From Agrococcus sp. ARC_14 (GTDB taxonomy: Bacteria; Actinomycetota; Actinomycetes; Actinomycetales; Microbacteriaceae): DNA of 64,000 bases. The translations under genes and the position numbers were made by a program. Below the pieces are notes generated by a model that did not search any database, was not told where the DNA came from, and saw nothing but the letters and a program-made list of their open reading frames with translations. The stretch is taken from NCBI RefSeq assembly GCF_022436485.1, contig NZ_JAKUDO010000002.1, positions 248,001-312,000 on the forward strand, in the 5' to 3' direction. This document shows, one piece after another, positions 56,449-64,000 of the stretch; within the stretch, counting starts at the first letter, position 1, and each line of letters starts with the position of its first letter.

Positions 56449-57030
56449 ATGTCGAACCTCCTCATCGTGGGCCCGCCCGGTGCGGGCAAGGGAACCCAGG
56501 CCGTCCGGATCGCTGAGGCGCTCGGCGTTCCCGCCGTCTCGACGGGCGACATCTTCCGTCAGAACATCAAGGAGCAGACCGCGCTCGGTCAGCGCGTCTC
56601 GGCGATGCTCGACGCGGGCGAGTACGTGCCCGACTCGCTCACCAACGAGCTCATCGACGACCGCCTCTCGCAGACCGACGCTGAGCAGGGCTACCTGCTC
56701 GACGGCTACCCGCGGACGGCGGGCCAGGTCGAGTTCCTCGACGGCGTGAACCTGCACCGTGGCGAGCAGCTCGACGCCGTCATCCGGCTGGTCGCCGACA
56801 CGGACGAGGTCGTCCGGCGCCTGCTGATGCGTGCGCAGGAGCAGGGCCGCAGCGACGACACCGAAGAGGTCATCCGGCACCGGCTCGACGTCTACGAGCG
56901 CGAGACGGCGCCGCTCATCGCGATCTTCGCCGAGCGGGGCCTGGTGGTCGAGGTCGACGGCATCGGCGCCGTCGACGAGGTGACGGAGCGCATCCTCGCC
57001 GGCCTCGCCGAGCGGGGCATCTCCGCCTGA
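56449..57030 (+). CDS. adk: Adenylate kinase
   Basis: 193 residues, the short-lid form without zinc cysteines. P-loop [10 protein letters not shown] at residues 8-17, [16 protein letters not shown] and [19 protein letters not shown] are seen. It interconverts 2 ADP with ATP and AMP. Starts right after secY and overlaps map by one base. Confidence 0.98.
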
Positions 57031-57860
57031 TGCGGGGGCGCGGCACCTACAAGTCCCGGCGCGAGCTCGCAGCGATGCGCGAGCCGGGCCGCATCACCGC
57101 CCTCGCACTGGCGGCGGTCGAGCAGGCGATCGAGGTCGGCGTCACGCCGCTCGAGCTCGATCGGCTGGCCGAGCGCGTGATTCGCGAGCACGGCGCCGTG
57201 CCCAACTTCCAGCTCGAGCCCGGCTACCAGCACACGCTCTGCGTCAGCCTCAACGACGTGGTCGTGCACGGCATCCCCGGCGATCGGCCGATCGCGCCAG
57301 GCGATCTGGTCACCGTCGACTGCGGCGCGACGATCGGCGGCTTCCACGGCGACGCCGCCATCACGGTCGTCGTGCCGGGCGGCGACCCACAGCTGCACGC
57401 TGCCAGGCAGCGCCTCAGCGACGTCACGAGGGGCGCGCTGTGGGATGGCATCGCAGCGCTGGCCTCCGCGAAGCAGCTCGGCGAGGTCGGCGCGGCGGTC
57501 GAGGACCACGTGGAGGCCAACAGCGACTACGGCATCAGCGACGACTACATCGGCCACGGAATCGGCAGGGCCATGCACGAGGAGCCGCCGGTCTTCAACT
57601 ACCGCACCCGCGTCGTCGGGCCTGCCGTGAAGCCCGGGCTGTGCGTCGCGATCGAGCCGATCATCCACGCTGGCGGCACCGAGTCGACCACGGATGACGA
57701 CGGCTGGACGGTGCGCAGCGCCGACGGCAGCGACGCCTGCCAGTGGGAGCACTCGGTGGCTGTGCACGCCGGCGGCATCTGGGTGCTCACCGCGCTCGAC
57801 GGAGGCGCCGCCGAGCTCGCGCCCTACGGGATCGTGCCCGCACCCATCGCCGAGCGCTGA
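57030..57860 (+). CDS. map: Methionine aminopeptidase, type I
   Basis: 276 residues. Metal ligands are in TVDCGATIGGFHGDAAITV (two Asp), YIGHGIGRAMHEEP (His), the CVAIEP region (Glu) and QWEHSVAVH (Glu). It removes the initiator Met during translation. Normal neighbours secY and adk precede it, but infA, rpmJ and rpsM do not follow; an accessory region starts 1 bp after its stop. Confidence 0.97.
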   Translation: MRGRGTYKSRRELAAMREPGRITALALAAVEQAIEVGVTPLELDRLAERVIREHGAVPNFQLEPGYQHTLCVSLNDVVVHGIPGDRPIAPGDLVTVDCGATIGGFHGDAAITVVVPGGDPQLHAARQRLSDVTRGALWDGIAALASAKQLGEVGAAVEDHVEANSDYGISDDYIGHGIGRAMHEEPPVFNYRTRVVGPAVKPGLCVAIEPIIHAGGTESTTDDDGWTVRSADGSDACQWEHSVAVHAGGIWVLTALDGGAAELAPYGIVPAPIAER

Positions 57861-57861
57861 G

Positions 57862-58290
57862 CTACGCGGCTCGGAGCAGCGCCGGTCGCGGGCGGAGCGC
57901 GAGGTAGCTGCGCACGATGTCGACCGTCACGCCCAGCTCCTCGGCGAGCTCGGTCTCGTCCCTGGCCCACGCCACCGCAGCCTTCAGGGCGGCGGGATCG
58001 ATGAGGAGCAGCGCAGCGAAGCGCTCAGCCGCCCGTTCCGCGGCCGCCGAGTCGCCGGTGTCCATCCGCAGCGCGTGGCCGAGCTCGTGCGCGAGCACGG
58101 AGCGCTGCTCGACCGGGGTGAGCCCGGGCAGCAGCAGGATGCGGGCTGCGGTGTGGTCGTAGGCCCCGAGCCAGCCGCTCGGCAGTGGCGCGCTGCGCAC
58201 GTCGACGCGAAGCTGGCTGCAGAGCGCGACGAGCTCACTCAGCGTGGGGCTCGTCCCTTCGAGGGATGCCGCGCCGTGCCGCAAGTCCAT
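57862..58290 (-). CDS. ImmA/IrrE-family metallopeptidase
   Basis: 142 residues from the start at 58290, chosen for a GGAAG site nearby; upstream Met codons at 58320 or 58398 would overlap the XRE gene more. The zinc motif HELGH is at 68-72 (VLAHELGHALRMD), and the downstream helices fit ImmA/IrrE. Such proteases cut a partner XRE repressor in response to a signal (ImmA-ImmR, IrrE-DdrO). Here the partner is the overlapping XRE gene upstream, so induced derepression of nearby genes is plausible. Confidence 0.85.
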   Translation of the reverse strand: MDLRHGAASLEGTSPTLSELVALCSQLRVDVRSAPLPSGWLGAYDHTAARILLLPGLTPVEQRSVLAHELGHALRMDTGDSAAAERAAERFAALLLIDPAALKAAVAWARDETELAEELGVTVDIVRSYLALRPRPALLRAA

Positions 58291-58708
58291 CGATCGTCTG
58301 CTTCCGCTGCTCGTGCTCATGGAGTGCGGTGACCGTAGCCGAGCCCTCTGACACGGCGCCCGCGCGCACATGCGCAGCCAGCGTCGCGATCGCGGCATCT
58401 GCGGCGAGGTGCCGACGGTCGTCGGGAACGCTGGAGAGCAGCTCAGACATCACGGCGATCCAGAGCTCGACCTCTGGATCGCGCCGCTGCGCGTCGGTGG
58501 CGAGGCCGAGTGCGGCGAACAGTCGCCGCAGCACGTCCTCCTGCGGTGCACCCGCGCCGCGCTCGATGTTGCTCACCGTGGTGCGGTCGACCTCCGCGAG
58601 CTGCGCGAGCGCCAACTGGCTGAGGCCGCGGCGCAGTCGCGCCGGTCGCACGAGCGCTGCGTAGTGCGCCCGCTCTGACGCGCTCGCGCCGCGAAGGTGG
58701 ATCGACAT
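58235..58708 (-). CDS. XRE-family transcriptional regulator
   Basis: 157 residues from ATG 58708. An N-terminal Cro/C1-type HTH (RRGLSQLALAQLAEVDRTTV, then IERGAGAPQEDVL) is followed by a helical region of about 90 residues. It overlaps the ImmA/IrrE-like gene by 56 bp, the usual regulator-protease arrangement. Probable targets are the small XRE gene and the bacteriocin operon facing it. Direct repeats in the intergenic region (58775, 58786) are candidate operators. Confidence 0.88.
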   Translation of the reverse strand: MSIHLRGASASERAHYAALVRPARLRRGLSQLALAQLAEVDRTTVSNIERGAGAPQEDVLRRLFAALGLATDAQRRDPEVELWIAVMSELLSSVPDDRRHLAADAAIATLAAHVRAGAVSEGSATVTALHEHEQRKQTIDGLAARRGIPRRDEPHAE

Positions 58709-58774
58709 CCGTGGCCTCGTCTCTCTGCTGCCTCTGCACCAGATTATCCGCACGCGCGCGGAGCAGCGTCACGG

Positions 58775-58848
58775 TTCTTCGACACTTCTTCGACAAATGC
58801 CGCAGTCTCCTGGCGTGTCTGTGGAGAACATCTTGCACGGACGTCGAA
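58775..58848. promoter_or_regulatory. Candidate operator repeats upstream of the bacteriocin region
   Basis: TTCTTCGACA occurs at 58775-58784 and 58786-58795, one helical turn apart. GTCGAA at 58843-58848 is the inverted core. They sit between the divergent XRE genes, a natural place for repressor binding. Confidence 0.5.
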
Positions 58849-58868
58849 AACATGGCATGGTTTGCGAC

Positions 58869-59072
58869 ATGACTGCAGAATCTCGCTTCGGGGCGTCGCT
58901 CGCCGTGCTGCGTGAGGAGGCGGGCATCACTCCGGAGCAGCTTGCCGACCTCGCCGGCACGCCGCTCGCCACCGTGATCGGCATCGAGCGTGGGGAGATC
59001 GAGCCGCCGGTGACGCTGGTCGAGCGTCTGACCGCTGCGCTCGCCCTCCGGCTGCGAGGAGGCCAGGCATGA
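58869..59072 (+). CDS. Small XRE-type regulator
   Basis: 67 residues from ATG 58869 (ATG 58857 is possible). Almost the whole protein is one HTH: FGASLAVLREEAGITPEQLA, then LAGTPLATVIGIERGEIEPP. It is truncated relative to typical XRE regulators and lacks a second domain. It lies 76 bp before the bacteriocin gene and may be its immediate regulator. Divergent from the XRE/ImmA pair. Confidence 0.8.
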   Translation: MTAESRFGASLAVLREEAGITPEQLADLAGTPLATVIGIERGEIEPPVTLVERLTAALALRLRGGQA

Positions 59073-59148
59073 CGCCTGGAGCGAGCCCACAGTCTCGTGC
59101 CGAACGGCATGAGCGCCCGATGCACGGGTGAGACAGAGGAGGAACAAC

Positions 59149-59427
59149 ATGCACATCGAAACCCGAAGGGGGCGCGCCGCGATCTGGAGCGCCTCCGCCG
59201 CCGTCAGCGTCGTCGGCCTCGCCATCGCGGGGCTGTCGCTCGCGTGGCTCGTCGGGAGCTTCGGCATCTCGACGGCGGCCGCCACGCAGATCGTGACGGC
59301 GATCGAGATCGGCGGGGCCGCGATCGCGATCATCTCAGCGATCCTCAGCGCAGGCGTGGTCGGCATCGTCGTCTCGACCGTCGTCTGGTACCTGAAGCGC
59401 AAGCTGCGCAAGCTGGCGATCGCCTGA
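59149..59427 (+). CDS. Circular bacteriocin precursor (circularin A/uberolysin-like)
   Basis: 92 residues behind a strong GAGGAGGAAC site. A basic, hydrophobic leader of about 33 residues ends ...LSLAW, followed by a core of about 59 residues. The core starts LVGSFGISTAAATQIVTAIE and ends in the cationic WYLKRKLRKLAIA. The TAAATxIVxxI element near the core start matches circularin A, and the rest (hydrophobic helices with Gly/Ala/Ile, then a Lys/Arg patch, no Cys) fits the class of head-to-tail circular, membrane-permeabilising bacteriocins. The gene order behind it also fits. The leader-core boundary is inferred. Confidence 0.85.
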   Translation: MHIETRRGRAAIWSASAAVSVVGLAIAGLSLAWLVGSFGISTAAATQIVTAIEIGGAAIAIISAILSAGVVGIVVSTVVWYLKRKLRKLAIA

Positions 59428-59428
59428 C

Positions 59429-60019
59429 ATGCGCGCAGCCGACGTCGACGCTCCGCAGGCACGCCTGTGGCCGGCCGCGACGGCGTCGGCTGTGCTCGCC
59501 CTGGCGGGGTTCGCGCTGGTCATCGCGACGAGCGCCGGCTCTGCGGGTGGGCTGGCAGCCGCGAACGTCGCGGCCATCGCGAACGGCGACATCGACGAGA
59601 GCGTGCTCGCGGGTGATCGCGATGCGGTCGCCATCGCCGTGCGCAACCTCGGCGCGATCGCGATCCTTGCCGGCGGTGCCGCCACATGCGGCCTGTTGAC
59701 CGTGCTGGCGGTCGCCATCGTCGGGATCGGCGTCGGATGGGGCGGGGCGGCGGCGGTGGCAGCGCTCGGTGCCGCGGAGACCGTCTCACGCATCGCGCCG
59801 TACATCGTGTTCGAGCTCACCGGCGTCGCGCTCGCAGCGGTCGCGGGCCTGCTGCCTGCGGTGCACGCCCTGCTGGCCGCGATGCGTCGTCGACCCTCAC
59901 CGTTCCGGGCGTACACGGATGCGCTCGGAACCAGTCTCGCGCTCGGCGGCATCGCCGCGGCGCTCATCGTCGTCGCGGCTCTCGTCGAGGCGATCGTCAT
60001 CGGTGCGCACGCGACGTGA
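59429..60019 (+). CDS. SpoIIM/DUF95-like membrane protein of the bacteriocin locus
   Basis: 196 residues, 1 bp after the precursor gene. Four or five membrane helices. Residues about 70-145 (VRNLGAIAILAGGAATCG, later APYIVFELTGVALAAVAGL) match the SpoIIM/DUF95 pattern, with Asn and Gly in the first helix and a P-x-x-x-x-E segment, although the usual PHG reads PYI. DUF95 proteins are a regular part of circular bacteriocin loci (such as CirB or AS-48C) and are thought to help maturation or export. Confidence 0.78.
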   Translation: MRAADVDAPQARLWPAATASAVLALAGFALVIATSAGSAGGLAAANVAAIANGDIDESVLAGDRDAVAIAVRNLGAIAILAGGAATCGLLTVLAVAIVGIGVGWGGAAAVAALGAAETVSRIAPYIVFELTGVALAAVAGLLPAVHALLAAMRRRPSPFRAYTDALGTSLALGGIAAALIVVAALVEAIVIGAHAT

Positions 60020-60039
60020 CACCGAGGGAGGAGAAGGCA

Positions 60040-60582
60040 ATGACCGACACGGTGCAGAGGGCCGAGCGCACGGAGCGCAGGGCTCGGACGACATCCATCG
60101 GAACCTGGCTGCTGGTGGTGGTCGTGGCGATCGCGCTGCTGGTGATCCGGCTGCCGCAGTTCATCGCAGTCGCGGAGGGTTCCCTGGCAGACGCGACCGC
60201 GACGCTCGGGGACGAAGCGCTCTCGGATGCGGCGATCGTGATCGGATCTGCCACAGCCATCGCGCTGCACGCGATCGGCATCCTGCTGGTGGCGGCCGCA
60301 GCCACGGTGCTCGAGCGCTTCTTCGGCCCTCGCGCGCTGGGCGCGAGGCTGCGCGTGGGCGTCGGAGGCGCGGCACTCGCGATCCTCATGCTCGGGCAGC
60401 AGGCGATCGCGACCGTCTCCGGTGTCGCTGCGGTCGAGCGGGGGTGGCCGATGTGGCTCGCCGGCGCGATCGTCGCGCTCTCCACACCATTGCTGTTCCC
60501 CGCAGCCCGTGCCGGCCTGCGGCCGTATGCTCGGGCGCTGCTCGTGACCGGCGTGATCGGAGGCTTGCTGTGCATCGGATGA
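60040..60582 (+). CDS. Membrane protein, bacteriocin locus 1
   Basis: 180 residues behind GGGAGGAGAAGG. A charged N-terminus of about 25 residues leads to four or five membrane helices (SIGTWLLVVVVAIALLVIRL and on). A possible structural relative of the small multi-helix proteins in circular bacteriocin operons, but no family recognised. Could contribute to maturation, export or immunity. Overlaps the next gene by ATGA. Confidence 0.65.
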   Translation: MTDTVQRAERTERRARTTSIGTWLLVVVVAIALLVIRLPQFIAVAEGSLADATATLGDEALSDAAIVIGSATAIALHAIGILLVAAAATVLERFFGPRALGARLRVGVGGAALAILMLGQQAIATVSGVAAVERGWPMWLAGAIVALSTPLLFPAARAGLRPYARALLVTGVIGGLLCIG

Positions 60583-60980
60583 GCGGGTCGTTCCGGTTGC
60601 CCGTCGTCGGCGTCAGCGTCGCACTGGCGCCCGCTGGCGTGCGTCTGCTGGCGGCGATGACGCTGCTCGCTGGCGCGGGCACCATCGCGGGCATCGCGCA
60701 GGGGCCGGTGCTGGCGGCGCGCGAGCCGTTCGTGACACCGATCGTGCTGGCGCTGGGCGTGCTGACCGTGCTGGCCACCGTGCTGCCGCTGCTCGACGGC
60801 GGCTACCGGCCGCTGCTCGTGGGCATCCCTGTGCTCGCACTCAGCCTCGTCGCGGCCGTCTCCCTGGCGCTCGGAGCAGCCTGGCCGACGCCGCTGCTCG
60901 CCTCGCTGCTCATCGTGCTCGGCGGCTGCACGATCGTGTACCACCTGCTCGGCCGCGGCCTCTCCGATCAGGGGGAATGA
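60579..60980 (+). CDS. Membrane protein, bacteriocin locus 2
   Basis: 133 residues with four membrane helices and almost no loops (VGVSVALAPAGVRLLAAMTL and on). Start at ATG 60579, overlapping the previous stop; GTG 60570 is possible. Small, very hydrophobic proteins of this size often give self-immunity in circular bacteriocin loci; that role is a guess. Overlaps the next gene by ATGA. Confidence 0.65.
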   Translation: MSGSFRLPVVGVSVALAPAGVRLLAAMTLLAGAGTIAGIAQGPVLAAREPFVTPIVLALGVLTVLATVLPLLDGGYRPLLVGIPVLALSLVAAVSLALGAAWPTPLLASLLIVLGGCTIVYHLLGRGLSDQGE

Positions 60981-62095
60981 TGCATCTGGCCGCCAGACGG
61001 CATTCGTCGGCCGACGGCGGGCTCCGAGGGGTCGCTGCGGCGCTCATCGAGGTCACGATGCCGAACGGCGTCGACACCGCGACGCTCCGACGCCTCCGTG
61101 GGCCGCTGTGGGTCGCGATGGGCGCGAGCGCGCTCGCTGCAGTGCTGGCGGTGCTCGCAGTGATCGACGTCGCACGACTCCTCGTCGGATCCGGTGCCGT
61201 CGCGCTCGTGCTCGCCATCGCCGTGCTCCTGCTTCCGGCGTCGAAGCTGGTGCTCGGCGTGCCCAGCGGCCCCGCCGCAGCGATCGCCCATGCCGCACCG
61301 CTGCTGCGAGCGATCGACCTCGGCCCCGCGCTCGAGCGGGCGGGCAGGATCGCGGCGCTGATCGCGCCGATCGGGCCGATCGCGGTGCTCGGGCTCGCCG
61401 GCGCCGCCGTGCTGATCGCCCGGGGCTCGAGCATGCACGGCCTCGTGGTCGCGGCGGCGACGGCAGCGGGCGCCGCCGCCGGCTGGCTCGCCGCCATCAG
61501 GGCCGCGCGCTCGCTCCGAGCCCAAGAGCAACGCCCCGCTCCGCTGTGGCGAGTGCTCATGCAGGCCGCGCTGCTCACCGGCGTCGCGCTGGTCGTGGCC
61601 GCTGGGGCGCCCCTGGCCCCTGCCGGGATGCACGCTGCGGTCGGCAGCGCCGCACTCGCCGCCGCGGTGGCAGGCGCCGTGCACGTCGCGGGGGAGATCC
61701 TGGGGCTGGATGCTCGAGGGCCGCTGCGACTCGCGCGATCGCTCCTCGACTGCGGTGCGGCACCGTGGCGCTTCGTCGCGCTCGTCCTCGGCGGTGCCCT
61801 GGGATGCGCAGCAGCGCTCGGGATGGCCGCAGCCACAGCGGTCGGGGCGCTCAGCGGCTCGTCCGCCCTCGCAGCGCTCGGCGGGCTCAGCGTCGTCTCC
61901 GTCACGGTGAGCGCGGTCGCCGTGCTCGTGGCGCGGCCGACGGCGTCGGACATCGTTCCCCGCGTGCTGCTGTTCGCGGTCGCGCTCGTGCCTGCTGGGC
62001 TCGCGCTCGCTGCAGGATCCTGGATCTCGCTCGGTGCGGCCGCGGCGCTGGCATGCATCGTGCTGCTCGGGCTCCTGGTGAGCAGGCTGTCGTGA
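60977..62095 (+). CDS. Polytopic membrane protein, bacteriocin locus
   Basis: 372 residues. A soluble N-terminus of about 40 residues is followed by about ten membrane helices in pairs, with a mid-protein basic loop (IRAARSLRAQEQRPAP). No conserved motif recognised. Its position before two ABC ATPases and coupling by GTGA to the first make it the likely membrane part of the first transporter, in the manner of a permease. Ala/Val/Leu-rich as expected in this GC range. Confidence 0.68.
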   Translation: MMHLAARRHSSADGGLRGVAAALIEVTMPNGVDTATLRRLRGPLWVAMGASALAAVLAVLAVIDVARLLVGSGAVALVLAIAVLLLPASKLVLGVPSGPAAAIAHAAPLLRAIDLGPALERAGRIAALIAPIGPIAVLGLAGAAVLIARGSSMHGLVVAAATAAGAAAGWLAAIRAARSLRAQEQRPAPLWRVLMQAALLTGVALVVAAGAPLAPAGMHAAVGSAALAAAVAGAVHVAGEILGLDARGPLRLARSLLDCGAAPWRFVALVLGGALGCAAALGMAAATAVGALSGSSALAALGGLSVVSVTVSAVAVLVARPTASDIVPRVLLFAVALVPAGLALAAGSWISLGAAAALACIVLLGLLVSRLS

Positions 62096-62706
62096 TCGGC
62101 ATCCGTGTCGCGGAGGTGCGAGGGCTGCGGCGCGGCGTGCGCGAGCTGCCGGTGCCCGAGCTCGATGTCGAGGGCCCGGGGATCATCCTGGTGCGCGGGC
62201 CGAACGGCGCGGGCAAGAGCACGTTCGTCGAGCTGCTCGCCGGGGGCGTGCGGCCCCGCGAGGGGGATGTCAGGATGTGCGGGCTGCCTGCAGCCTCGAC
62301 GGCCGCGCGAGTCATGCGGCGGGTGAGCCGGGCCGACATCGCGCTCCTGCCGAGGCTCACGATCCGGCGTCACGCGACGCTCTTCGCACGCGCGGCCGCC
62401 GTCGATCTGCGCACCGCGCTCGACGCGCTCGCCGACGAGGGGCTGGCCCATCTCATCGATGCGTGCACGGCCGAGCTCTCGACGGGGGAGGCGCGACGCG
62501 CGTGGGTGCGCCTCACGACGCTGGGGGCAGCGCCGGTGCTGCTGCTCGACGAGCCGTTCCTGGGAATGGACGTCGATGCCGAGACCGCGCTCCGGGAGCG
62601 ACTCGAGGCGTGGGCGCAGGAGCGACTGGTGGTGCTGGTCGACCACGGCGAGCGGCGGCTCGGCGCAGTGGTGCAGGAGTTGCACCTGGGAGCGGCGGTC
62701 GCATGA
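62092..62706 (+). CDS. ABC transporter ATP-binding protein 1, bacteriocin locus
   Basis: 204 residues from GTG overlapping the previous stop. Walker A GPNGAGKS; the signature loop is ELSTGEARRAWV, where the usual LSGGQ reads LSTGE; Walker B VLLLDEPFLGMD; and the switch His in LVDHGERR. A compact ATPase likely coupled to the polytopic membrane protein before it. Typical role in such loci: export of the circular peptide or self-protection. Confidence 0.88.
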   Translation: MIGIRVAEVRGLRRGVRELPVPELDVEGPGIILVRGPNGAGKSTFVELLAGGVRPREGDVRMCGLPAASTAARVMRRVSRADIALLPRLTIRRHATLFARAAAVDLRTALDALADEGLAHLIDACTAELSTGEARRAWVRLTTLGAAPVLLLDEPFLGMDVDAETALRERLEAWAQERLVVLVDHGERRLGAVVQELHLGAAVA

Positions 62707-63614
62707 TGGCGGGTGTGCGGCGGCGCGCGACGGCAGCGGCGATCGACGTGCAGGATCTGCGGATCCGCTTCGGCGGCCGCACCGTGCTCGACGGCGTGTC
62801 CTTCGGAGCCCCCGCGGGCTCGGTGACCGGCTTCGTCGGTGTCAACGGAGCAGGCAAGACGACGACGCTCCGGCGACTGCTCGCGCTCGAGCACGGAGAG
62901 GGCGATGCGCTCATCGGTGGCGCCGACTATCGCGATCTCGAAGACCCGCTGCGCTCCATAGGCTTCTGCCCCGATGCCCTCGGTGCGCCAGCGGGCAGCA
63001 CCGCGCGCGAGCACCTCCGTGCGATCGCGACGCGAGCGGGCGTCGACGCTGTCGAGCGCACGCTCCGCGAGGTCGGGCTCGCAGACGTGACCCAGCGCAT
63101 CCGCACGTACTCACTCGGCATGCGGCGACGGCTCGCGATCGCCGGGGCGCTCGTCGCGTCACCGCCCGTGCTCGTGATGGACGAGCCGTTCGACGGGCTG
63201 GATCCCGAGGGGAGGCGCTGGCTGGGGGAGCGGCTGCGCGCGCACGCGGACGCCGGTGGCGTCGTGCTGCTCTCGGCTCATGCGCTCGACGAGATCGAGC
63301 CGCTGCTCGACCGCCTGGTGTGCCTGCATGCCGGCAGGGTGCGATTCGAGGGCGCCGCAGAGCGCTTCCTGCAGGCGCACGCCGCGCCCGTGACGATCGT
63401 GCGCTCGCTCGATCAGCAGCGCCTGGCTGTCGCGCTCCGCAGCGCCGGTGCGACCGTCGCCGGCCGTGCTGCCGGGGCGGTCGCAGTCCGCGGCCTCGCG
63501 GCGGCGCAGATCGCCGAGGTTGCGGCTGCTGCGCAGGTGCTCGTCACCGAGCTGTCGCCGAGACGGGTCTCGCTGAGCCAGGCGTTCGCAACCATGACCT
63601 CGGAGGCAGGGTGA
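62703..63614 (+). CDS. ABC transporter ATP-binding protein 2, bacteriocin locus
   Basis: 303 residues from ATG 62703 (ATGA overlap). Walker A VNGAGKTT, signature TYSLGMRRRLAIAGAL, Walker B VLVMDEPFDGLDPEG, switch His in LLSAHALDEIE. The C-terminal 75 residues form an extra domain, as in drug- and bacteriocin-immunity (BcrA-like) ATPases. It overlaps the permease that follows and should energise it; a self-resistance pump is the likely role. Confidence 0.92.
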   Translation: MMAGVRRRATAAAIDVQDLRIRFGGRTVLDGVSFGAPAGSVTGFVGVNGAGKTTTLRRLLALEHGEGDALIGGADYRDLEDPLRSIGFCPDALGAPAGSTAREHLRAIATRAGVDAVERTLREVGLADVTQRIRTYSLGMRRRLAIAGALVASPPVLVMDEPFDGLDPEGRRWLGERLRAHADAGGVVLLSAHALDEIEPLLDRLVCLHAGRVRFEGAAERFLQAHAAPVTIVRSLDQQRLAVALRSAGATVAGRAAGAVAVRGLAAAQIAEVAAAAQVLVTELSPRRVSLSQAFATMTSEAG

Positions 63615-64000
63615 GATCCCGATCCCGCGCAGGCGTCGCGGCTGAGCTGCGGCAGCTGTCGACCGATCGGCGCCTGCGCTGGATCCTGGCGCTCGCGGTC
63701 GGCTGCTCGGCGATCGGCGGGCTGGTGCACGCCGCGATCGCGGCGCAGCTGCCCGGCATCGATGCCATCGAGCTGCAGACGGCCGTCGTCTCCCGGGGCG
63801 CCGCGACGCAGCTGGCGGTCGTGTTGCTGATGAGCGTCGCGGTCGCGGGTCGCTACCGCGACGGATCCTGGCTGCAGCTCGCGCTCGCCGAGCCACGGCC
63901 GTCGCGCAGGCTGCTCACCGCTGCAGCCCCGGCACTGTCGGCCAGCGTGCTGCTGGCGCTGGTCTCGGCGGCGTCCGCGACGGCGGCTGCTGCGCTCGTG
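63611..64000 (+). CDS. ABC-2-type permease, 3' end missing
   Basis: Starts at GTG 63611, overlapping the previous stop. The 130 codons present begin RSRSRAGVAAELRQLSTDRR and contain at least three hydrophobic helices (RWILALAVGCSAIGGLVHAA, later LAVVLLMSVAVAG). The AVAGRYRDGSWLQLALAEPR segment is typical of BcrB/NatB-like ABC-2 permeases. It is cut by the right edge of the window, so neither its end nor the end of the operon can be seen. Confidence 0.82.
   Translation, partial: MRSRSRAGVAAELRQLSTDRRLRWILALAVGCSAIGGLVHAAIAAQLPGIDAIELQTAVVSRGAATQLAVVLLMSVAVAGRYRDGSWLQLALAEPRPSRRLLTAAAPALSASVLLALVSAASATAAAALV

Follow-up and report, generated by a model that had tools for sequence, protein, structure and literature searches.

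Does the end of this stretch of DNA encode a circular bacteriocin in an actinobacterium and, if so, between which residues would the ring be closed? The stretch, hereafter the window, comprises 64,000 nucleotides of contig NZ_JAKUDO010000002.1 of Agrococcus sp. ARC_14, and the operon in question starts with a precursor gene at position 59149. Circular bacteriocins are antimicrobials of high stability; which enzymes cleave off their leader and close their ring is not known from the literature. A first-pass annotation, made from the letters of the window, had interpreted the locus as that of a circular bacteriocin. Our analysis supports this interpretation: the family match of the precursor, its SpoIIM partner, the ATP-binding cassette (ABC) genes, and the structure of the operon make it highly probable that the locus is a chromosomal cassette for a putative head-to-tail circular bacteriocin of the uberolysin-like family (Pfam Bacteriocin_IId).

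The precursor gene is preceded by a Shine-Dalgarno sequence (AGGAGG, 59137-59142), with a spacer of 6 bases to the ATG at 59149, and comprises 92 codons, followed by a stop codon at 59425-59427. Read directly, the peptide has no cysteine, contains LVGSFGISTAAATQIVTAIE, and carries the cationic patch WYLKRKLRK at its C-terminus, so that the description given in the first-pass annotation (a 92-residue precursor without cysteine, with this core start and a cationic end) holds in full. The precursor is very hydrophobic overall, with three hydrophobic segments, and its alignment exhibits approximately 30 weakly conserved N-terminal residues, followed by a conserved block. The core, which comprises 59-62 residues depending on the assumed start (the 59-mer begins with L34, at base 59248), contains five K/R and one D/E residue, which corresponds to a charge of +4 and a linear isoelectric point (pI) of 10.45. 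It is free of cysteine, and its grand average of hydropathy is 1.34-1.38. In size, charge, and hydrophobicity, it therefore resembles the cores of family I circular bacteriocins, which are cationic, hydrophobic, and 58-70 residues long (size range as described in PMC7562740).

The precursor and the genes downstream of it are as follows:

59149..59427, + strand: precursor peptide, 92 amino acids; PF09221 above cut-off; leader of approximately residues 1-30/33, core of approximately 59-62 residues.
59429..60019, + strand: SpoIIM/DUF95 membrane protein, 196 amino acids; PF01944, 31.3 bits (cut-off 26.9); a partner typical of the class.
60040..60582, + strand: membrane protein, 180 amino acids; four hydrophobic segments; matched in 8/8 cassettes.
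60579..60980, + strand: membrane protein, 133 amino acids; four hydrophobic segments; matched in 7/8 cassettes, including that of the window, not in G303.
60977..62095, + strand: membrane protein, 372 amino acids; ten hydrophobic segments.
62092..62706, + strand: ABC transporter ATPase 1, 204 amino acids; PF00005, 58.4 bits (cut-off 25).
62703..63614, + strand: ABC transporter ATPase 2, 303 amino acids; PF00005, 77.1 bits (cut-off 25).
63611..64000, cut by the end of the window, + strand: permease-like membrane protein, 255 amino acids; six hydrophobic segments.

With regard to the family, a search with hidden Markov models (HMMs) for circular bacteriocins, suggested in the first-pass annotation, gave a divided result. 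The precursor matches PF09221 (Bacteriocin_IId, uberolysin-like) with 30.8 bits, well above the cut-off of 23.6, whereas its score for the circularin A/uberolysin subfamily, NCBIfam TIGR03651, is just under the cut-off (28.0 bits against 30.7, E 2e-6). The SpoIIM/DUF95 gene adjoins the precursor gene and two PF00005 proteins belong to the cluster, in agreement with the published circular clusters, all of which hold a precursor, a DUF95 gene, and ATP-binding genes, as described in PMC8534725. As the cut-offs of PF09221 and PF01944 are both exceeded in neighbouring genes, as PF09221 has no match in 14 control genomes, and as the order of the matched genes is kept in eight Agrococcus genomes, the locus goes beyond what chance would produce.

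Profile searches extend this assignment to proteins of known structure. Profile A2 was built from 29 Agrococcus-type precursors out of 48 proteins, and profile A4 from A2 and five NKR-like rows. Against 177,635 PDB sequences (E <= 10), A2 gave three matches, namely enterocin NKR-5-3B (E 0.0016) and two AS-48 entries (0.038 and 0.044). With A4, NKR-5-3B was found at E 3.3e-16, with profile positions 34-92 on its residues 1-63, and further matches were AS-48 (0.0018 and 0.0068) and, at E 2.4, carnocyclin A, interspersed with two unrelated proteins. A search of 5.8 billion proteins returned 40 at E <= 1, including the precursor of the window itself. Where their organism is given, it is Agrococcus, and once an unclassified Actinomycetota metagenome-assembled genome. 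The closest relative with a named organism is from Agrococcus sp. ProA11 (91%), and seven of the 40 were already named "uberolysin/carnocyclin family circular bacteriocin" by NCBI.

The gene content announced in the first-pass annotation (SpoIIM/DUF95, three membrane proteins, two ABC ATPases, and a permease, all "without gaps") was found, and the quoted words are nearly literal. The stop codon of the precursor is separated from the SpoIIM gene by 1 base and the SpoIIM gene from the next gene by 20 bases, after which each of the next five junctions, leading to the 133-residue protein, the 372-residue protein, ATPase 1, ATPase 2, and the permease, is a 4-base overlap. These genes are thus very probably translated together. 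The SpoIIM protein exhibits five hydrophobic segments, is matched in 8/8 cassettes, and is presumed to be part of an export/maturation complex. Neither the 180-residue nor the 133-residue protein matches a Pfam or NCBIfam family above cut-off; both are candidate immunity or maturation factors. The 372-residue protein, for which Pfam and NCBIfam gave no family match, is possibly the membrane half for ATPase 1; its gene is matched in 4/8 cassettes (those of the window, G119, G314, and G305) and not in G303, G265, G306, and G309. The permease-like gene ends at 64378 in window numbering, 378 bases beyond the window, and as a Pfam search up to E 1 left its protein unmatched, the word permease reflects position and hydrophobicity only. 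A scan of 7.2 kb with Rfam gave nothing at gathering scores. A scan for promoters and terminators gave one promoter-like site on the minus strand (L002, 1772-1743) and no terminator-like site, so none could be placed for the operon.

The position of the ring joint is the most unusual aspect of the precursor. The cores of family I usually have Leu, Val, or Met as their first residue and an aromatic one as their last; carnocyclin A and garvicin ML are exceptions, with the aromatic residue beside the ligation site, and family II rings end in Ala (as described in PMC7562740). All 47 precursors P0001-P0047 carry W directly ahead of the LVGSFG-like start; A is the C-terminal residue in 41 of them, R in four, K in one, and P in one. 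We also compared 12 representatives with less than 75% identity, taken from 48 sequences without P0040, P0043, P0045, P0048, and the six NKR-like proteins. W occupies position 33 in ten of them, Y in one (G683), and V in one (G654); positions 29-32 and 34-35 are more variable than W33, and G28 is as constant as W33. Eleven of the 12 have A at position 92, and the remaining one has R. The six NKR-like precursors all end in W, and the residue before their core Leu is D, D, E, N, Y, and N. In the HMM alignment, positions 34-92 cover residues 1-63 of NKR-5-3B, which leaves W64 without a partner.

As W33 is nearly invariant, as the precursor ends in Ala, as W64 of NKR-5-3B is unpartnered, and as circularin A needs an aromatic residue at its last position, where Ala, Val, Ile, Lys, Arg, and Asp block the mature peptide (as reported in PMC10028692, in which AS-48 W70A, in contrast, still yields a ring alongside a linear form), we propose that W33 could belong to the ring. 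The ligation point may then be shifted by one residue, with an Ala92-Trp33 bond, a ring of 60 residues, and ...A-W-L... kept at the joint; we regard this as a tentative proposal, somewhat unlikely as it stands. It is similarly doubtful, although conceivable, that the aromatic residue which ends the core elsewhere, such as W64 of NKR-5-3B, is here encoded N-terminally as W33. Several points count against the shifted joint. Trp is not tolerated at positions 1 and 2 of circularin A (PMC10028692). W33 may also be a feature of the leader, since short leaders often carry an aromatic residue at -2, and G654 has an aromatic residue at neither joint position. The C-terminal Arg found in some carriers, described below, is a further difficulty. 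Altogether, the ring may extend from L34 or W33, or less likely from L31, to A92. For this precursor, the calculated monoisotopic ring masses are 5901.50 Da (L34-A92), 6087.58 Da (W33-A92), and 6271.70 Da (L31-A92), in each case 18.01 Da less than the linear peptide. The start at L31, which would give 62 residues, is based on the analogy with gassericin A, which begins with IYW; it is less likely because L occurs at position 31 in 7/12 representatives, compared with 10/12 for W at position 33. The 33/59 split of the first-pass annotation thus survives as one of three readings and is no longer the sole one, as the better-conserved W33 may be part of the ring.

Several results weigh against a circular bacteriocin. 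The cut-off of TIGR03651 was missed by 2.7 bits, the single precursor sequence retrieved four unrelated proteins and no circular bacteriocin from the PDB, and the profile-profile comparison of A2 with the NKR-like profile A3 was weak (39.5% probability, E 0.00031). The presumed core ends in Ala92, and therefore lacks the usual C-terminal aromatic residue of family I. In three of the eight carriers of the cassette (G265, G306, and G309), it ends in Arg, which also argues against a joint at W33; hydrophobicity of the last residue has been considered a requirement (PMC8659200). No dedicated immunity protein, leader protease, or ligase is recognisable among the operon genes. Finally, the prediction gave no four- or five-helix saposin-like bundle, the fold anticipated in the first-pass annotation, which listed any other predicted fold as a refuting outcome. 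AlphaFold2 gave a single helix (residues 2-91) for the full precursor, with a predicted template modelling score (pTM) of 0.37 from 29 alignment rows, and helices 2-8 and 12-61 without a bundle for the core, with a pTM of 0.44 from 31 rows; Foldseek found no match of the core model in the PDB at E <= 10. This is a real difficulty, as multi-helical AlphaFold2 models are reported for other predicted circular bacteriocins in a 2026 survey (PMC13289728). Nevertheless, given the low pTM, the 29 and 31 rows, the use of a linear chain, and the lack of a known member as control, we do not take the long helices as a refutation.

The same C-terminus, Ala or Arg and not aromatic, together with the models without a bundle, could be explained by a linear membrane-active peptide, leader-cleaved or unprocessed, that is exported by the SpoIIM/ABC set without forming a ring, all the more as non-aromatic ends block mature circularin A (PMC10028692). 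We consider this improbable: garvicin ML, of family I, and all family II rings compared end in Ala (as described in PMC7562740), and SpoIIM is held to be typical of circular bacteriocins or to define their class (PMC8659200 and PMC13289728). The marked hydrophobicity of the precursor, with its three hydrophobic segments, would also suit a holin-like or signalling membrane peptide devoid of any killing role, but the probability of this is small, as the PF09221 cut-off is exceeded, no holin family occurs among the three Pfam matches up to E 10, and the SpoIIM and ABC genes stay with the precursor in 8/8 carriers. Most improbable of all is a leaderless bacteriocin of the aureocin A53 type, active as translated. 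Such peptides have a similar small, globular, helical structure, and one, of this different class, has been predicted within the genus, in Agrococcus sp. SL85 (PMC11580447), yet the precursor exhibits approximately 30 poorly conserved N-terminal residues ahead of its conserved block.

Taken as a circular bacteriocin, the precursor shares features with several known groups. It resembles the enterocin NKR-5-3B/amylocyclicin group in its GIS-x-AA start, glycine-rich turns, and cationic tail, and in the alignment of residues 34-92 with residues 1-63 of NKR-5-3B. In contrast, nothing follows A92 that would correspond to the terminal W64 of NKR-5-3B, and the Agrococcus precursors have the near-invariant W before the presumed core. 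With uberolysin and circularin A, it shares the PF09221 match, the SpoIIM partner, and an ATPase; it differs in the TIGR03651 score, in the three unnamed membrane proteins, and in the presence of two ATPases. Garvicin ML and carnocyclin A likewise lack a C-terminal aromatic residue and have one beside the ligation site (PMC7562740), whereas both have short leaders; carnocyclin A is a weak profile match (E 2.4), and garvicin ML was compared by description only. Gassericin A and plantacyclin B21AG (family II), also compared by description only, end in Ala, and the leader of plantacyclin comprises 33 residues. Family II is described as having a pI below 7 (PMC7452424), compared with 10.45 here, a soft difference, as plantacyclin B21AG is cationic (PMC7562740). 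The AS-48-like cluster of Arthrobacter sp. APC 3897 is also actinobacterial and holds precursor, DUF95, and ATP-binding genes; its precursor, in contrast, is 71.3% identical to enterocin AS-48 (a predicted cluster, compared by description; PMC10456417). The Agrococcus proteins named circular bacteriocins by NCBI exhibit 70-91% BLAST identity to the precursor, whereas the protein so named in Rubrobacter naiadicus has a C-terminal W and falls into the NKR-like group.

How far does this type of precursor extend beyond Agrococcus? PF09221 found matches in 2/299 genomes of the family, in 3/396 of the order (one under cut-off), and in 5/396 of the phylum (four over cut-off). With A2, at least 5/299 and at least 4/396 genomes were found, adding G265, G056, G259, and G654; these are lower bounds, as no more than 17 and 13 candidates, respectively, were scored in any one genome. 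PF09221 leaves G056, G259, and G654 unreported and G683 under cut-off (L080, L081, L072, and L082; other actinobacterial genera). In all four, ABC ATPase matches and a SpoIIM-like gene lie within 18 kb around the precursor, the latter over the Pfam cut-off in G056 and found by tblastn, with 32-39% identity, in G259, G683, and G654. An Agrococcus-type profile would extend the family to other actinobacterial genera. One survey counts two actinobacterial precursors among 6,928 (PMC8534725); as A2 finds relatives that PF09221 missed, this rarity may partly reflect the search models. Among the phylum matches, G705, G779, and G801 are of the Rubrobacter type, and the G779 protein is identical in reading to P0050 (Rubrobacter naiadicus). 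The match in G850 was set aside, being partial (profile positions 2-43 of 67), inside an open frame of 642 residues, and under cut-off. A scan of genome contigs with the single precursor gave 586 pattern matches and no confirmed relative.

Within Agrococcus, the cassette begins upstream of the precursor, with the following genes:

58869..59072, + strand: small XRE-type helix-turn-helix regulator, 67 amino acids, just upstream of the precursor; PF13560, 41.6 bits (cut-off 27).
58235..58753, - strand: XRE-type helix-turn-helix regulator, divergent from the operon; PF13560, 44 bits (cut-off 27); 8/8 cassettes.
57862..58398, - strand: open reading frame for an ImmA/IrrE-type metallopeptidase; PF06114 (Peptidase_M78), 48.2 bits (cut-off 22); 8/8 cassettes.
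57030..57860, + strand: map (methionine aminopeptidase), left border, outside the cassette; PF00557, 132.6 bits.

The small regulator is matched in 8/8 cassettes, the match in G303 spanning 46 residues only. The Peptidase_M78 match covers residues 61-162 of its open reading frame, the coordinates of which do not fix the true start; the peptidase is probably the partner of the divergent XRE protein. For the flanking genes, we assume, from their sequences, the names HPr, mtlA, mtlF, mtlD, infA, rpsM, adk, secY, and methyltransferase-like gene. Downstream of the permease-like gene lie the HPr gene and then mannitol phosphotransferase system genes, and the site is in a ribosomal-protein neighbourhood (infA and rpsM follow). 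The cassette thus corresponds to 57862-64000 plus 378 bases, approximately 6.6 kb, between map and the HPr gene.

We took 24 Agrococcus genomes and read this site in 21 of them, three incomplete ones (G307, G312, and G315) remaining unread. The cassette is present in 8/21, with 6,599-6,685 bp between the map and HPr matches; in the other 13, map adjoins the HPr gene at a distance of 74-177 bp. PF09221 alone reports the precursor in 5/24 genomes, and the three further carriers, with 67-69% identity and unreported by PF09221 at E <= 0.001, came from reading the site around map. Nine of the 11 cassette genes are matched in all eight carriers, in one order and at one chromosomal site, and the length is nearly constant despite the uneven matching of the 133-residue and 372-residue genes (7/8 and 4/8). 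In G310 (L067), mtlA, mtlF, and mtlD are unmatched after HPr, though they are matched at the other empty sites read. Contig C3 of G314 carries two copies of the cassette region (L010 and L011), approximately 47 kb apart, in opposite orientation and with the same match statistics; this may reflect a large duplication in inverted orientation or an error of assembly (the genome is listed with 8% contamination).

In a tree built from eight neighbouring proteins, the carriers are dispersed; G303, for instance, has the cassette and its near sister G304 does not. The identities of cassette and host proteins correlate (Spearman 0.77, 28 carrier pairs, which are not independent). An old presence with losses and exchange by recombination in the flanks both fit. 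The presumed core of G303 (W33-A92; L008, 10114-10293, against 59245-59424 of the window) is identical to that of the window at 54/60 residues, with a dS of 0.28, although six of its other cassette proteins are jointly only 44% identical to those of the window, which hints at an exchange of the peptide gene between cassettes, or at constraint. Non-synonymous and synonymous rates (dN/dS) were compared in seven of the eight carriers, with G303 left out. Close pairs show strong constraint on the core, with 3.0 non-synonymous and 13.0 synonymous differences for G000-G119; in 14/17 distant pairs, the core ratio is above that of the leader. This picture is mixed overall, and we did not use it as evidence for conservation of the core alone.

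Based on this gene content, a route to the mature peptide can be proposed. The switch formed by the divergent XRE protein and ImmA, together with the small XRE protein, would control the operon. The hydrophobic leader would be cut off by some protease. SpoIIM, the unnamed membrane proteins, and an ATPase would form a complex at the membrane that links the freed N-terminus to Ala92. The product would be a cationic ring of approximately 6 kDa that exits via the ABC machinery and permeabilises the membranes of Gram-positive competitors, while some of the small membrane proteins, with ATPase 2 and the permease, would protect the producer. Judging from position only, maturation/export may fall to ATPase 1, SpoIIM, and the 372-residue protein, immunity to ATPase 2, the permease, and the small membrane proteins, and control to XRE/ImmA. 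Leucocyclicin Q is reported to be closed but kept in the cell when its DUF95 protein is missing (PMC7132975 and PMC6131525), which suggests that SpoIIM serves export. We also considered ImmA as the leader protease; this is unlikely, as no ImmA or XRE relative was matched (E <= 0.1) within the 18-kb surroundings of the G056, G259, G683, and G654 precursors.

What is new in this locus? The first-pass annotation considered that an actinobacterial member with this gene set may be new, and most known members of the family do come from Firmicutes. Head-to-tail clusters are reported in Firmicutes and Chloroflexi (PMC4289311), and the matches listed among open-licence PMC papers include neither a study of an Agrococcus circular bacteriocin nor a circular bacteriocin isolated from an actinobacterium. 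The nearest case is the predicted AS-48-like cluster of Arthrobacter sp. APC 3897, a strain described as anti-listerial in vitro (PMC10456417). With this cluster in print and NCBI names on the Agrococcus relatives, to which the two actinobacterial precursors of the survey can be added, the actinobacterial origin itself is not new. What stands is a new relative of a known family with an unusual joint region, namely a tryptophan beside the presumed ring joint. As the cassette is present or absent at one site among near-relative Agrococcus species, matched strains are available. If the shifted joint is real, the feature recognised by the enzyme (the helix around the joint) would be distinct from its cutting site. 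A clade that has its Trp on the opposite side of the presumed joint allows the determinants of the cleavage and ligation points to be tested directly.

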